Below, in pieces: positions 6,804 to 11,492 of a DNA stretch of 64,000 bases (its first letter is position 1; each line of letters begins with the position of its first letter). The translations under genes and the position numbers were made by a program. Source of the DNA: Microbispora hainanensis (lineage in GTDB: Bacteria; Actinomycetota; Actinomycetes; Streptosporangiales; Streptosporangiaceae); assembly GCF_006874475.1 (NCBI RefSeq), contig NZ_VIRM01000008.1, positions 1 to 64,000 of the forward strand, given 5' to 3'. The notes beneath the pieces were generated by a model. That model saw only the letters and a program-made list of their open reading frames with translations. It did no database searches and was not told where the DNA came from.

Positions 6804-8825
6804 TCAGCCCTCCTTCTCGTGCCGCTCCAGCGCCGCCCGCACGTCGGGGTCGTCCGGGGCCAGGGCCAGCGCCCGGCGCAGGTCGAGCAGCGCCTCCCGG
6901 CCCCGGCCGAGCGCGTCGAGCGCGGTGGCCCGGTTGAAGTACAGCGCCGCGTCCTCGCCCAGCTCGATCGCCCGGGTGAGGTCGTCGACGGCGCCCCGCG
7001 CATCGCCGGTCTCGAACCGCAGGGTCGCGCGGTTCGCCCAGGCCGAGGCCAGGCGGGCGTCGGCGGCCAGCGCCGCGTCGAAGGCCAGGGCGGCCTCCGC
7101 GTAGCGGCCCGCCTCCGTCTCCAGCTGCCCCAGCACGCCGTGCAGGTGCGCGTTGCCGGGGTCGAGGGCCAGCCCCGCCTCGACGTCGCGCCTGGCGGCC
7201 TCGTGCTCGCCGAGCATCTCCAGCACGCCGGCCCGGTTGACGTACGCGTCGAGGTAGCCGGGGTCGAGCTCGATCACGTGGTCGAGGTCGGCCCGGGCGC
7301 CGTCCAGGTCCCCGGCGGCCAGGCGCAGCTCCGCCCGGTTGTAGTACGCCTCGGGCAGCGGCGGGCTGACCCGCATCGCCGCCTCGTAGTCGGCCAGCGC
7401 CTCGTCCGTACGTCCCATCTCGAACAGCAGGTTGCCCCGGTCGAGATAGTGGTCGGGGAAGCCCGGGTCGATCGCGACGGCGCGGTCGAAGTCGGCCAGC
7501 GCCTCCTCCGGCCGGCCGAGGCGTGCGAGGAGCTGCGCGCGGTTGCCGAACAGCACCATCCGGTGCACGGGGTGGGTGTCCGGCCGAAGATCGCGCTCGG
7601 CCAGGTCGATGGCCGACTGCACCAGGCCGAGCGCCTCGTCGGTCCGCCCCTCCCGCAGCTCGATCAGCGCGCGGCCGTTCTGGTCGAACCCGAGCTTGAA
7701 GGCTCGCGTCCGCCGGTCGGGCAGCAGCGTCGAGATGGCTATCGCCTCGTTGATCCAGGCCCTGGCCCTGGCCAGGTCGCGCCGCGCAGGATCGCGGTCG
7801 CGCGCGTCGAGCATCGCCGTGCCGTAAGCGGCGGCGGCGTGCACGGCCGGATCGACGCTGACCCTGCGCGCCTGGTCGTACAGCTCCTGCGCGTACGCCC
7901 GGCGGCCCAGCCCCGCCAGGGCCGTCGCGGTGCGGTGGGTGAAGCGCCACCACAGGTCGGACCCCGGCTCCACCAGCCGCAGGCCGCGCGAGCCCAGCTC
8001 CACAACTGCGTGCAGGAGCCCCTCGGTGACGCAGTGGTCCACCGCGGCCCACAGGGCCCGCGCCGCCGCGTCCACGTCGCCGCCGTGCTCCAGGTGGTAC
8101 GGCACCGCGCCCAGGGCGTGCTCCGCCGCCGCGGGGTCGGCCATCAGCTCGGCGGCGCGCCGGTCGTGCCGGTGGGCCCGTTCCTCGGGCGGCAGCGACA
8201 GGTAGGCCCGGTAGGCCCGGGGGTCGTCGGAGGTGCAGTCAGAGGCGACGTAGTCGTCGGGCGGCCCGCCCTGGGCCCGCGCCTCCACCAGCCGCGTGCC
8301 CTCCCCCGTGTCCTTCCATGGGGGCTCCGGGGAGCCGAGGGCCAGCGTCAGATCCGGCACCCGGCGCGCCAGGACGCGCAGCAGCTCGCGGTCGGCCGGG
8401 TCCGCCTCGTGCAGGTTGTCCACCAGCAGCGTCCGCGGCCCTTCGAGGCAGTCGCGGACGAACTCGGCGATCCCGTTGGCGATCCGGAGCGTACGGCGCG
8501 GCGCGGGCACGAGGATCCGCTCGTCCTCGGTCAGACGGGCCTCGATGGTCTGCCGTCGCGCCGGCACCAGAGGGCGCAGGCTCGGAGCGACGGCGCGGAT
8601 CTCGATGTCGTGTTCCGCCACCAGGCCCGGGGAACGCTCCAATGCGACCGGGACGAGGGCGCGCAGAATCGCGCCACCGATCGTGTACGGACCGCGTAGC
8701 CGTCGGTGCCCGTTGACGACGGGCGCCACGGAAGGCGGCACCTCCGTGGGAAGCGCGAGGAGGGCCGCCACGCGGTCCCGGGAGAGGTCTCCCCGGACCC
8801 AGATGTGGCTCGGGTGGACCCTCAC
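6804..8825 (-). CDS. Seven-TPR protein with degenerate ATPase-like N-terminus
   Basis: A 673-residue protein in two parts. Residues 1-180 contain LLVDNLHEADP, which resembles the Walker B region of STAND/LAL ATPases (DDLHWAD), but no Walker A loop is visible, so ATPase activity is doubtful. From about residue 425 to 665 there are seven consecutive canonical TPRs (for example YYNRAELRLAAGDLDGA), a protein-binding solenoid. The GTG start overlaps the stop of the micro-gene at 8822-8899 in a GTGA junction and has no well-spaced ribosome site of its own, so translation is probably coupled. I do not recognise its function; a scaffold or peptide-binding role is inferred. Confidence 0.8.
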   Translation of the reverse strand: MRVHPSHIWVRGDLSRDRVAALLALPTEVPPSVAPVVNGHRRLRGPYTIGGAILRALVPVALERSPGLVAEHDIEIRAVAPSLRPLVPARRQTIEARLTEDERILVPAPRRTLRIANGIAEFVRDCLEGPRTLLVDNLHEADPADRELLRVLARRVPDLTLALGSPEPPWKDTGEGTRLVEARAQGGPPDDYVASDCTSDDPRAYRAYLSLPPEERAHRHDRRAAELMADPAAAEHALGAVPYHLEHGGDVDAAARALWAAVDHCVTEGLLHAVVELGSRGLRLVEPGSDLWWRFTHRTATALAGLGRRAYAQELYDQARRVSVDPAVHAAAAYGTAMLDARDRDPARRDLARARAWINEAIAISTLLPDRRTRAFKLGFDQNGRALIELREGRTDEALGLVQSAIDLAERDLRPDTHPVHRMVLFGNRAQLLARLGRPEEALADFDRAVAIDPGFPDHYLDRGNLLFEMGRTDEALADYEAAMRVSPPLPEAYYNRAELRLAAGDLDGARADLDHVIELDPGYLDAYVNRAGVLEMLGEHEAARRDVEAGLALDPGNAHLHGVLGQLETEAGRYAEAALAFDAALAADARLASAWANRATLRFETGDARGAVDDLTRAIELGEDAALYFNRATALDALGRGREALLDLRRALALAPDDPDVRAALERHEKEG

Positions 8826-8899
8826 CCCTTGTGGATCACGCTCGAGGTGCCGCTGAGCTTGGTCGTCCCCGGCTTACGGATAATGATCTTCTTCATCAT
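8822..8899 (-). CDS. 25-residue micro-gene coupled to the TPR gene
   Basis: A short ORF starting ATG ATG behind GGGGAAAGAGG and ending in TGA that overlaps the GTG of the TPR gene by four bases (GTGA). The peptide begins MMKKIIIRKPG, continues with Thr/Ser/Gly-rich residues and ends VIHKG; it is basic (six Lys/Arg), with no Cys. The same frame stays open upstream into the acetyltransferase 3' end, but only this start has a ribosome site. The ATG 3 bases downstream (8896) has better spacing. The 80 bp upstream are clearly AT-richer than the surroundings, as expected of a promoter. It could be a peptide ligand, modified peptide precursor or leader peptide for the TPR gene. Confidence 0.6.
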   Translation of the reverse strand: MMKKIIIRKPGTTKLSGTSSVIHKG

Positions 8900-8976
8900 G
8901 CCTCTTTCCCCACTCTTGCGGACAAGGCACAAGTATTCGCACAGATCAGCTATCCGCCAAGGGATGGAAGCATTAT

Positions 8977-9567: not shown

Positions 9568-11157
9568 TCACCCGGCGTCCCGCAGCAGCTCCGGTGGGAC
9601 CTCGACCCGGCTCTCCTTGAGCATCTCGCAGAAGGCCTGGAGCCGAGCCGAGTCGCCGTGCTTGGCCCTGATCTCCTTCACCAGGTCATATGCCGGTCTG
9701 AGCAGCAGGTCGGTCCGGTAGTCCTTGTCGACCAGCTCGATGGCCTCCTCGCCCAGCTTGAGCGCGGCGTCGACGTCGCCGTCGATGAGGCGGCACATCG
9801 CCCGGTCGAACCGGATCAGGGTCTGGTCGAGCAGGTCCTCGTCGGTGTATTTGTCGAGCGCCTGCTGCAGGATCACGTCGGCCTCGACGGTCTGCCCCAG
9901 CTTCACCAGGACGTCACCCTGGTAGAAGTAGAGCTGCCGCTCGGTGTAGCCGAACGCCGGGTCCTCCCGGTCGCTGTCGTTCATCTGCTGGAAGGCCGCC
10001 CTGGCGCGGTGCAGGGCCCGCTTGGCCTGCTCGACCACCTCGTGGCGCGAGCCGTTGACACCGGCGATCTTCGCCAGCGCCCTCGCCTCGACGACAGGCG
10101 CCATGGTCCGCGCGGCACAGGGGGTGTGGCCGGCGAGGTCGCGGCTCTTCTTCGCCAGCGTGAGCGCCTCACGCGGGTCGCCGTAGTAGAGCGGCACCAG
10201 CGCCTCGCGGGCGGTGACCCAGGCCCGCAGGGCCCGGTCGCCGGTCTCGTCCGCCGCCATCCGGCCGGTGCGGAAGAACGAGCGGGCCATCCGCTGGTCC
10301 CCGAGGTCGATCATGATCATTCCCGAGAGCCCGGCGAGCTGGGCGGCCATCCGGCACAGCCGTTCCTGCACGTCGATGGGCTGCCGGCGGTCCAGCGCCT
10401 TGCGCACGGCGGTGAACTCCAGCATGACGTCGCAGAGCAGCCGTACGGGCGGGGTGTTCATGTACTGCCGCCCGAAGCCGAACGTGGCCTGCTCCCACTG
10501 GTCGAGCATCGCCGGCGAGACGGTGGCTGTGACCATCGTCTCGTCCATCCGCCGGCGGAGGTTCTCCACCGCGCCGAGCACCTCTTCGTTGAGCTCCTTG
10601 AGCCCGACCGACCCGACGGCGCCGCCGGCGAGGAGCCTCAACAGCGTCCTCCGTAGCACGTTCTCGTCCTCCTCGCCCCCGTCCACCGGATGGGTGCCGC
10701 CGCCCGACGGGGCGGGCGCAGCCCACGGAGCGGGTGAAGTGATATTTCTGTCCTGTTCCGAGCCCCCGCCACCTGATTCGCCCGGATGTCCGTGGCCGCA
10801 GATGCACGGGCTTTCGAACCCGAGGGCCAGGGGCTCCACCCGGTAGACCGAGCACAGGTAGTGGAGATACTCCGGGCCGGGCCGCTTCATGCCCGACTCG
10901 TACGCGGACAGTAGCGTCTCGCCGATGCCGGGGACGGCTTTTCCGTCCTTCTCGAAGAGAGCGCGCACCTGCTCGATCACGTCGGCGAGCGCCACACCGT
11001 GTGAGAGGCGATGTGCCTTGATGCGAGTCGTGCCGAACTGCGCTCCGCAGTCTTTGTGGATCTCCTCTGCGATCTGGGCCAGGCTGCGCCCGGCGGCCAG
11101 GCCCCGCGCCCGGATCCGGCGCGCGATCTCCGTCTCCCTGTGTTGCCTGCCGGACAT
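9568..11157 (-). CDS. XRE-type HTH regulator with TPR-like C-terminal domain
   Basis: A 529-residue protein starting MSGRQHRETEI at ATG 11157, with GAGAGGGG 5-6 bases upstream; the longer open frame upstream runs into the divergent promoter and was rejected. The N-terminal ~100 residues are an HTH region with LLSAYESGMKRPGPEYL, typical of XRE recognition helices. A disordered Gly/Pro segment with a CICGHGHP cluster follows, then an alpha-helical TPR-like domain over about 350 residues. This architecture is common in Streptosporangiales and Streptomyces, often divergent from a small partner protein, as here. A development or metabolism regulator is likely; targets are unknown. Confidence 0.82.
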   Translation of the reverse strand: MSGRQHRETEIARRIRARGLAAGRSLAQIAEEIHKDCGAQFGTTRIKAHRLSHGVALADVIEQVRALFEKDGKAVPGIGETLLSAYESGMKRPGPEYLHYLCSVYRVEPLALGFESPCICGHGHPGESGGGGSEQDRNITSPAPWAAPAPSGGGTHPVDGGEEDENVLRRTLLRLLAGGAVGSVGLKELNEEVLGAVENLRRRMDETMVTATVSPAMLDQWEQATFGFGRQYMNTPPVRLLCDVMLEFTAVRKALDRRQPIDVQERLCRMAAQLAGLSGMIMIDLGDQRMARSFFRTGRMAADETGDRALRAWVTAREALVPLYYGDPREALTLAKKSRDLAGHTPCAARTMAPVVEARALAKIAGVNGSRHEVVEQAKRALHRARAAFQQMNDSDREDPAFGYTERQLYFYQGDVLVKLGQTVEADVILQQALDKYTDEDLLDQTLIRFDRAMCRLIDGDVDAALKLGEEAIELVDKDYRTDLLLRPAYDLVKEIRAKHGDSARLQAFCEMLKESRVEVPPELLRDAG

Positions 11158-11332
11158 TCCGGCCCCTCTCTCGTGGCCGGCCGCACTCGCAGCCCGTGGT
11201 CTCGAGCGGTCCTCGCTTCGTGACGGAGAGTGACTTACTCGTCGCACTCCGCCGACACCATAATGATGGACCATAGTTGGCGCGGCCAAGCCCCCAACAT
11301 GAACGTGCCGACTAAGGATCGTCTCCCGATAG

Positions 11333-11361
11333 GGGTTTTCTTTCAACCAACATGGGTTTTC
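11333..11361. promoter_or_regulatory. Direct repeat in the divergent XRE/partner promoter
   Basis: GGGTTTTC is found at 11333-11340 and 11354-11361, starting 21 bp apart, i.e. two helical turns. The repeat lies in the 335-bp AT-richer region between the XRE-TPR gene start (11157) and the divergent small gene (11493), so it is a candidate autoregulatory site. Confidence 0.4.
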
Positions 11362-11492
11362 CTCCACCTCAGGGACTTCTCGCCATCGTTGACCCGAGCA
11401 CTTCCGTGAGCCATCTTGGGCGCACCAGAGTGAACAGACGGGAACGGAAAGTACACATTCCGCCCGCGAACGGAAATGAAGGAGGACCTACG

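Follow-up and report, generated by a model that had tools for sequence, protein, structure and literature searches.

A short peptide gene overlapping a tetratricopeptide repeat protein gene in Microbispora hainanensis, a possible reduced member of a RiPP-like peptide family

In this report we describe a peptide gene of 24 codons and an overlapping gene for a 673-residue tetratricopeptide repeat (TPR) protein, both on the minus strand of a 64,000-nucleotide stretch of Microbispora hainanensis DNA (assembly GCF_006874475.1, contig NZ_VIRM01000008.1, positions 1 to 64,000), which as a whole is called the window. The pair had been singled out by an original prediction made from the letters of the sequence alone. 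The whole account rests on sequence and prediction, from which we infer the product and its role.

The overlapping genes of the window

The peptide gene (8822..8896, minus strand), read directly from the sequence, encodes MKKIIIRKPGTTKLSGTSSVIHKG and is closed by a TGA stop codon. As had been predicted, a GTGA overlap (8822..8825, minus, likewise read directly) joins this stop codon to the GTG start codon of the TPR gene. A Shine-Dalgarno-like AAAGAGG stands before the peptide gene (8901..8907, minus), and purine-rich stretches precede it in many relatives. The predicted open reading frame (ORF) with its own ribosome site is thus present, while its length of 25 codons, given by an ATG at 8899 that adds one Met, gives way to a likely 24. 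The second ATG, at 8896, is favored as the start because GAGG (8901-8904) lies 4 nt from it and only 1 nt from the first one, and because the first ATG is missing in most of the compared rows of relatives outside Microbispora. The peptide ends with HKG; no hydrophobic signal stretch was visible in it by eye, and no Pfam or NCBIfam family was found for the peptides.

The AT-rich DNA noticed ahead of the peptide gene was confirmed: the 80 nt upstream have 51% GC against 72% for the window, a value reached by 0.5% of its 80-nt segments. They contain a promoter-like motif, TTGGCG-N17-AATACT (8932..8960, minus), of a pattern shared with the upstream regions of the closest relatives and occurring once in the window when both strands are scanned.

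The TPR gene (6804..8825, minus; defined by its ORF, Pfam matches and a predicted structure) encodes a P-loop-less AAA-like front followed by a TPR superhelix. The frame of 673 residues stands as predicted, its start being less certain. The GTG at 8825 is the first in-frame start, and the view that it is the only one was withdrawn, since codons 19, 29 and 33 are also GTG. The deposited relatives P0006 and P0008 begin at about codon 33-34 of this frame; among 48 aligned homologues the start lies at most 12 residues from the overlap start in 33 and later in 15. Codons 2-32 gave a ratio of nonsynonymous to synonymous change (dN/dS) of 0.46, and an early W-x-R-like motif is present in only 12 of the 48. 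The gene lacks a properly spaced ribosome site, in agreement with the prediction: AAGGGG abuts the GTG, and no spaced Shine-Dalgarno sequence precedes the gene. Its translation would depend on the short ORF, with the reservation that the later in-frame GTG codons exist.

The front (about residues 1-200; 8226..8825, minus) resembles a degenerate AAA_16 domain by a weak Pfam match (E 0.0015, below the cut-off); its borders, and the reading of LLVDNLHEAD as a Walker-B-like segment, are ours. It has no Walker A, and GxxxxGK[ST] was found in none of the 48 homologues, so that the P-loop of STAND and AAA ATPases is missing and the predicted description of an ATPase-like front without a P-loop holds. 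No DNA-binding domain occurs among the Pfam matches listed for the protein. One Pfam TPR model marks seven stretches, and seven repeats, one of them with a weaker signature, can be read at about 422-655, which is the number predicted; the AlphaFold2 model (pLDDT 95.2), however, extends the helical superhelix from about residue 216 to 673 (6804..8180, minus). Structure matches of this model by Foldseek and VIA were to OGT and other TPR proteins. Asn residues at 428, 465, 496, 530, 598 and 631 form a ladder conserved among the homologues, as expected of an OGT-like superhelical array. Many of the Nonomuraea relatives are about 540-570 residues long. A role in defence was dropped since the sole PADLOC result was a PrimPol match of the TPR protein, lying over the TPR repeats.

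Conservation and linkage of the pair

Sequence comparison confirmed that the peptide-TPR pair is real and more than chance. For a test by position only, loci were chosen by a TPR protein match starting at residue 1 (n=40), the peptide sequence being ignored. TGA was found at the overlap in 40/40, and the preceding 24 codons were open in 39, that is in all 39 loci of group A, the group with peptide tails of the window type (see below); at the exception, the group C locus L025, the peptide precedes a protease gene. The Ka/Ks check that had been proposed for the peptide gave a dN/dS of 0.14 over codons 2-23 (39 loci, 23 distinct DNAs). In sets picked by peptide head and tail patterns, where some positions are therefore conserved by construction, the values were 0.18 for group A (63 DNAs), 0.21 for group B (21) and 0.27 for group A peptides without a TPR gene (8). 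Synonymous change accompanies conserved residues far from the overlap, and within group A the peptide DNA has a mean identity of 78% against 33% for the 72 nt upstream. Conservation restricted to the overlap region would have spoken against the original prediction, and it was instead found to span the whole peptide. The short precursor of a RiPP (ribosomally synthesized and post-translationally modified peptide) is gene-encoded, and the peptide, as far as comparison can tell, is also encoded, conserved and selected as protein.

Searches of 297 Streptosporangiaceae genomes located the peptide in 128 (E<=0.1) and the TPR protein in 140 (E<=1e-60); with the match lists compared by hand, 127 genomes have both, one the peptide alone, 13 the TPR protein alone and 156 neither. 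Near-identical strains inflate these and other counts. An absent or broken ORF beside close TPR homologues, named beforehand as grounds for rejection, was not what we saw, as the peptide is located upstream in 29/30 and 37/37 loci retrieved with the TPR protein as sole query (two sets that share species, the distant L098 being left out of the second). Altogether it lies upstream in 131 of 133 distinct TPR loci, many of which were chosen by peptide matches and served to build the hidden Markov model (HMM) of the peptide. The exceptions are L215, in whose genome, G030, there is a weak peptide match (E 0.018), and L153. Two matches reached 15 bits or more in the opposite-strand control of the HMM; the stronger one is in L153, whose group B-type peptide and TPR gene are on different strands. 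MKKIIVCKHTLAKLTGSSSVIHKG, the group A-like peptide of L204 (G023), has Cys as residue 7 and a changed PG; it lies beside its TPR gene and is missed by the head and tail patterns.

In a TPR tree of 129 rows (built by a quick method and rooted at the midpoint, with some loci entered twice), groups A and B together form one branch with support of 100, B has 100 and A 99, while group C is diverse. Group A peptides have SVIHKG-type tails and mostly Arg at position 7 (R7); group B peptides have tails such as SPKHVG and His at this position (H7). The R7/H7 label requires 3 changes on the tree vs 23 in shuffles. Sorting of 116 distinct peptide loci, near-identical strains included, yielded 71 group A loci with a TPR gene, and all of these but L084 have the four-base in-frame overlap (70 in total, 69 GTGA and one TTGA, at L195). 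The overlap is missing in 16/22 group B and 11/11 group C pairs. The promoter-like pattern TTG-N19/20-A[AG]TA[ACT]T, drawn by eye from the same sequences in which it was counted, occurs in 58 of 70 distinct group A upstream regions with a TPR gene and 8 of 9 without one, against 0/24 in group B and 0/12 in group C.

A group A-type peptide persists in nine genomes where the 7.5-8 kb read contain no TPR match (the tail at L186 is longer); all nine loci retain NsdA- and GNAT-type neighbors, and six also purU. Since these six form one clade, loss of the TPR gene at the purU loci was probably one event, as far as the sequences indicate. All nine genomes have a TPR match elsewhere, and those of G019, G175, G234 and G238, the four placed on the tree, fall in group B. 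H7 is found in 9/9 of the peptides without a TPR gene, 21/21 group B DNAs and 2/63 group A DNAs with one. It is suggestive that a paralogous TPR protein serves the peptide in trans where the cis gene was lost. The change from R7 to H7 was not accepted as proof of recognition by the group B TPR protein and is only suggestive, because the six purU loci are one clade and two group A DNAs with a TPR gene have H7 too.

Next to the pair, an NsdA-family TPR-like regulator (NCBIfam NF053720, above the cut-off) is encoded at 9568-11367 (minus); a relative of it was present in 26/26 loci compared, with or without the peptide-TPR pair.

Relatives with a protease gene and variable tails

In other actinomycetes, which supply group C, the leader MKKIxVRKxGxVRLT heads variable and often Tyr- or Cys-bearing tails, for example QPLYAGGCGSVPLK, RLCNNYCYGMCCCAEILG and ACTTYPSKL. 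The family thereby has, through group C, the conserved leader and variable core of RiPP precursors, although the group A tail is nearly constant. The fuller cassette consists of one or more precursors, a membrane protease with a predicted RiPP recognition element (RRE) and an HExxH motif, and the TPR protein; a flavin reductase and a SARP regulator are frequent additions. The protease gene is located between peptide and TPR gene in group C; none was found beside the window pair or the group A and B pairs read. An RRE fold and an intramembrane peptidase are predicted for the group C protein. Precursors are in tandem before the protease and TPR genes at L276 (5), L277 (4), L278 (6), L283 (3) and L256 (4), the counts for L278 and L283 each including one diverged member. 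In the wider context of 15 group C stretches from 14 genomes, where gene families were grouped and only partly annotated, one family directly follows the TPR gene in seven (three members were scanned, all flavin reductases) and a SARP-like family gene lies within eight (one scanned). At L138 an old-yellow-enzyme-type gene follows the cassette, as scanned; similar-looking genes occur at L139 and L225.

When 396 genomes from across the phylum were searched with a single group C peptide, only G520 matched clearly; 16 weak matches (E 0.016-0.099) were judged to be chance. The protease was matched (E<=1e-40) in 27 of 200 genomes of the G520 family, at 30 places. All 21 places with at least 231 bits have both the TPR gene and the leader peptide, and the nine with at most 165 bits have neither within about 1.5 kb. 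At two protease loci without a TPR gene, L269 and L272, there is another kind of short ORF: MEKTVETRKPSKVVVRKLER...CRNEVCG in one and a close variant of it in the other. Group C is sparse in the class, as only 7 of 394 genomes had a protease match at E<=1e-30.

The window genome encodes two PqqD/M50-like proteins, G000:C90 (L136, 4869-8239) and G000:C203 (L137). They lie near ThiF-family and DUF6879 genes and probably belong to another peptide-modification system; a service to the window peptide was considered for them and is not supported.

Nature of the peptide and comparison with described systems

With somewhat better than even confidence, we regard the window pair as a reduced form, passed on by vertical descent, of a RiPP-like peptide family for which we came across no description and whose TPR protein reads the peptide. 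The promoter-like element, observed as a motif, would drive the peptide gene; after synthesis of the 24-residue peptide the ribosome would reinitiate at the overlapping GTG and produce the TPR protein in step. The TPR superhelix may then bind the extended peptide, mainly reading its conserved N-terminal half, MKKIxV[R/H]KxG.V.L. This assignment follows from the TPR gene being the only partner gene that the three groups have in common and the leader half the part of the peptide found in every group; the Asn ladder and the P-loop-less front point the same way. In the fuller cassettes the RRE-HExxH membrane protease would engage the peptide and probably free the variable tail. In Microbispora and its relatives the nearly constant SVIHKG tail and the lack of a protease gene beside the pair make it probable that the product is one conserved effector, signal-like or cofactor-like, and not a diversifying antimicrobial.

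Daptide clusters encode a precursor, MpaA, and an RRE-dependent intramembrane peptidase, MpaP (PMC10036551); group C is similar in its short precursor with a conserved leader and its predicted RRE fused to an intramembrane peptidase. The window peptide, unlike daptides, ends with HKG and has no C-terminal Thr, and its neighbor is a TPR protein, not a protease. No MpaB/C/D/M-type families (oxidative decarboxylase, aminotransferase, methyltransferase) were recognized among the scanned window neighbors or the families recurring in the 15 partly annotated group C stretches. On the side of resemblance, the NCBIfam model daptide_HExxH was matched weakly by a PqqD-M50 cousin in the window genome (22.5 bits vs a cut-off of 300). 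The epipeptide YydF locus has the epimerase YydG and a membrane protease, YydH, thought to release the peptide (PMC7026026). The combination of small peptide and membrane protease is shared, one of 42 group C proteases matching YydH/LiaK weakly (E 0.18), but no radical SAM epimerase or ABC exporter was recognized beside the pair, which has a TPR partner instead. By analogy, both systems provide earlier examples of a membrane protease to which the release of a RiPP tail is ascribed (PMC10036551, PMC7026026). Biphenomycin clusters, with a TPR-containing arginase, MNIO, radical SAM and TldD-type protease (PMC12257519, PMC12707348), also place a TPR-containing protein in a RiPP cluster; no arginase, MNIO, radical SAM or TldD-type protease was recognized here. 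AfsR/SARP-type STAND-TPR regulators have an NTPase-like domain followed by TPRs (PMC10936776), as does the window protein, and the SARP-like genes of group C recall them too, yet Walker A and a DNA-binding domain were not found in the window protein. We place the pair among RiPP-like systems and assign it to no named class.

Unlikely, though not negligible, is that the genes form an RRNPP-like pair in which the peptide is a secreted or internal signal and the TPR protein its cytosolic receptor. In RRNPP systems the gene of a small peptide adjoins that of a TPR receptor of 250-500 residues, and the propeptide undergoes SEC-type secretion (PMC10075063); by analogy, such systems are a precedent for the reading of a peptide by TPRs. 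The direct adjacency of the two genes agrees with two features of that definition; the nearly constant group A tail would suit a signal, and the STAND-like front without a P-loop may suit a receptor. Against this, the TPR protein exceeds the size range, the peptide has no secretion tag by eye, the Pfam matches listed include no DNA-binding domain, the peptide gene is upstream and overlapping, the host is an actinomycete, and the group C relatives have an RRE-protease and tandem variable precursors.

Rather doubtful is a plain two-protein complex in which the peptide, never processed, serves the TPR protein as a small structural subunit or acts as its inhibitor. The overlap of the genes, conservation along the whole group A peptide and the missing protease gene at the group A pairs read fit this; the variable tails and RRE-protease of group C do not, nor does the keeping of the peptide without a cis TPR gene, even if all nine such genomes have a TPR match elsewhere.

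That the short ORF is merely a leader setting TPR translation, one of the options originally raised, is improbable. The overlap in nearly all group A pairs and the window TPR gene without a spaced ribosome site are what it would predict, but the overlap is absent from most group B and all group C pairs, residues far from it are conserved amid synonymous change, and nine genomes retain the peptide where there is no neighboring TPR gene to couple, which disfavors this option. The option of a RiPP-like precursor, raised with it, gained support from the relatives with RRE-protease and variable tails. A chance ORF, preserved only for lying in regulatory DNA as the AT-rich upstream and promoter-like motif might suggest, is hardly credible in view of the position-only dN/dS, the synonymous drift, the poorly conserved 72 nt upstream and the presence of the peptide beside three TPR groups with differing spacings.

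A more far-reaching proposal that elaborates the RiPP-like reading is put forward tentatively, at less than even confidence: the family may represent a RiPP-like class without a name, its leader being read by a TPR superhelix of STAND type that lacks a P-loop, and one Streptosporangiaceae branch may have shed protease and diversity and fixed a hormone- or cofactor-like product ending in SVIHKG, which a paralogous TPR protein could serve in trans where the cis TPR gene has been lost. The original prediction knew no named system for the pair; we likewise found no description of the peptide-protease-TPR set in the literature searched, most subscription journals falling outside it.

Peptides this short can escape gene callers, and the leader MKKIxVRKxGxVRLT near a TPR gene would, if this interpretation is true, be a simple handle for finding more loci. 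The interpretation would also add a type of leader-recognizing protein, a TPR superhelix whose NTPase front is dead, to the biology of peptide natural products. It further prompts a question that can be tested: what has held a peptide of 24 residues nearly constant within one bacterial family, and preserved it in some species that have lost its partner gene?
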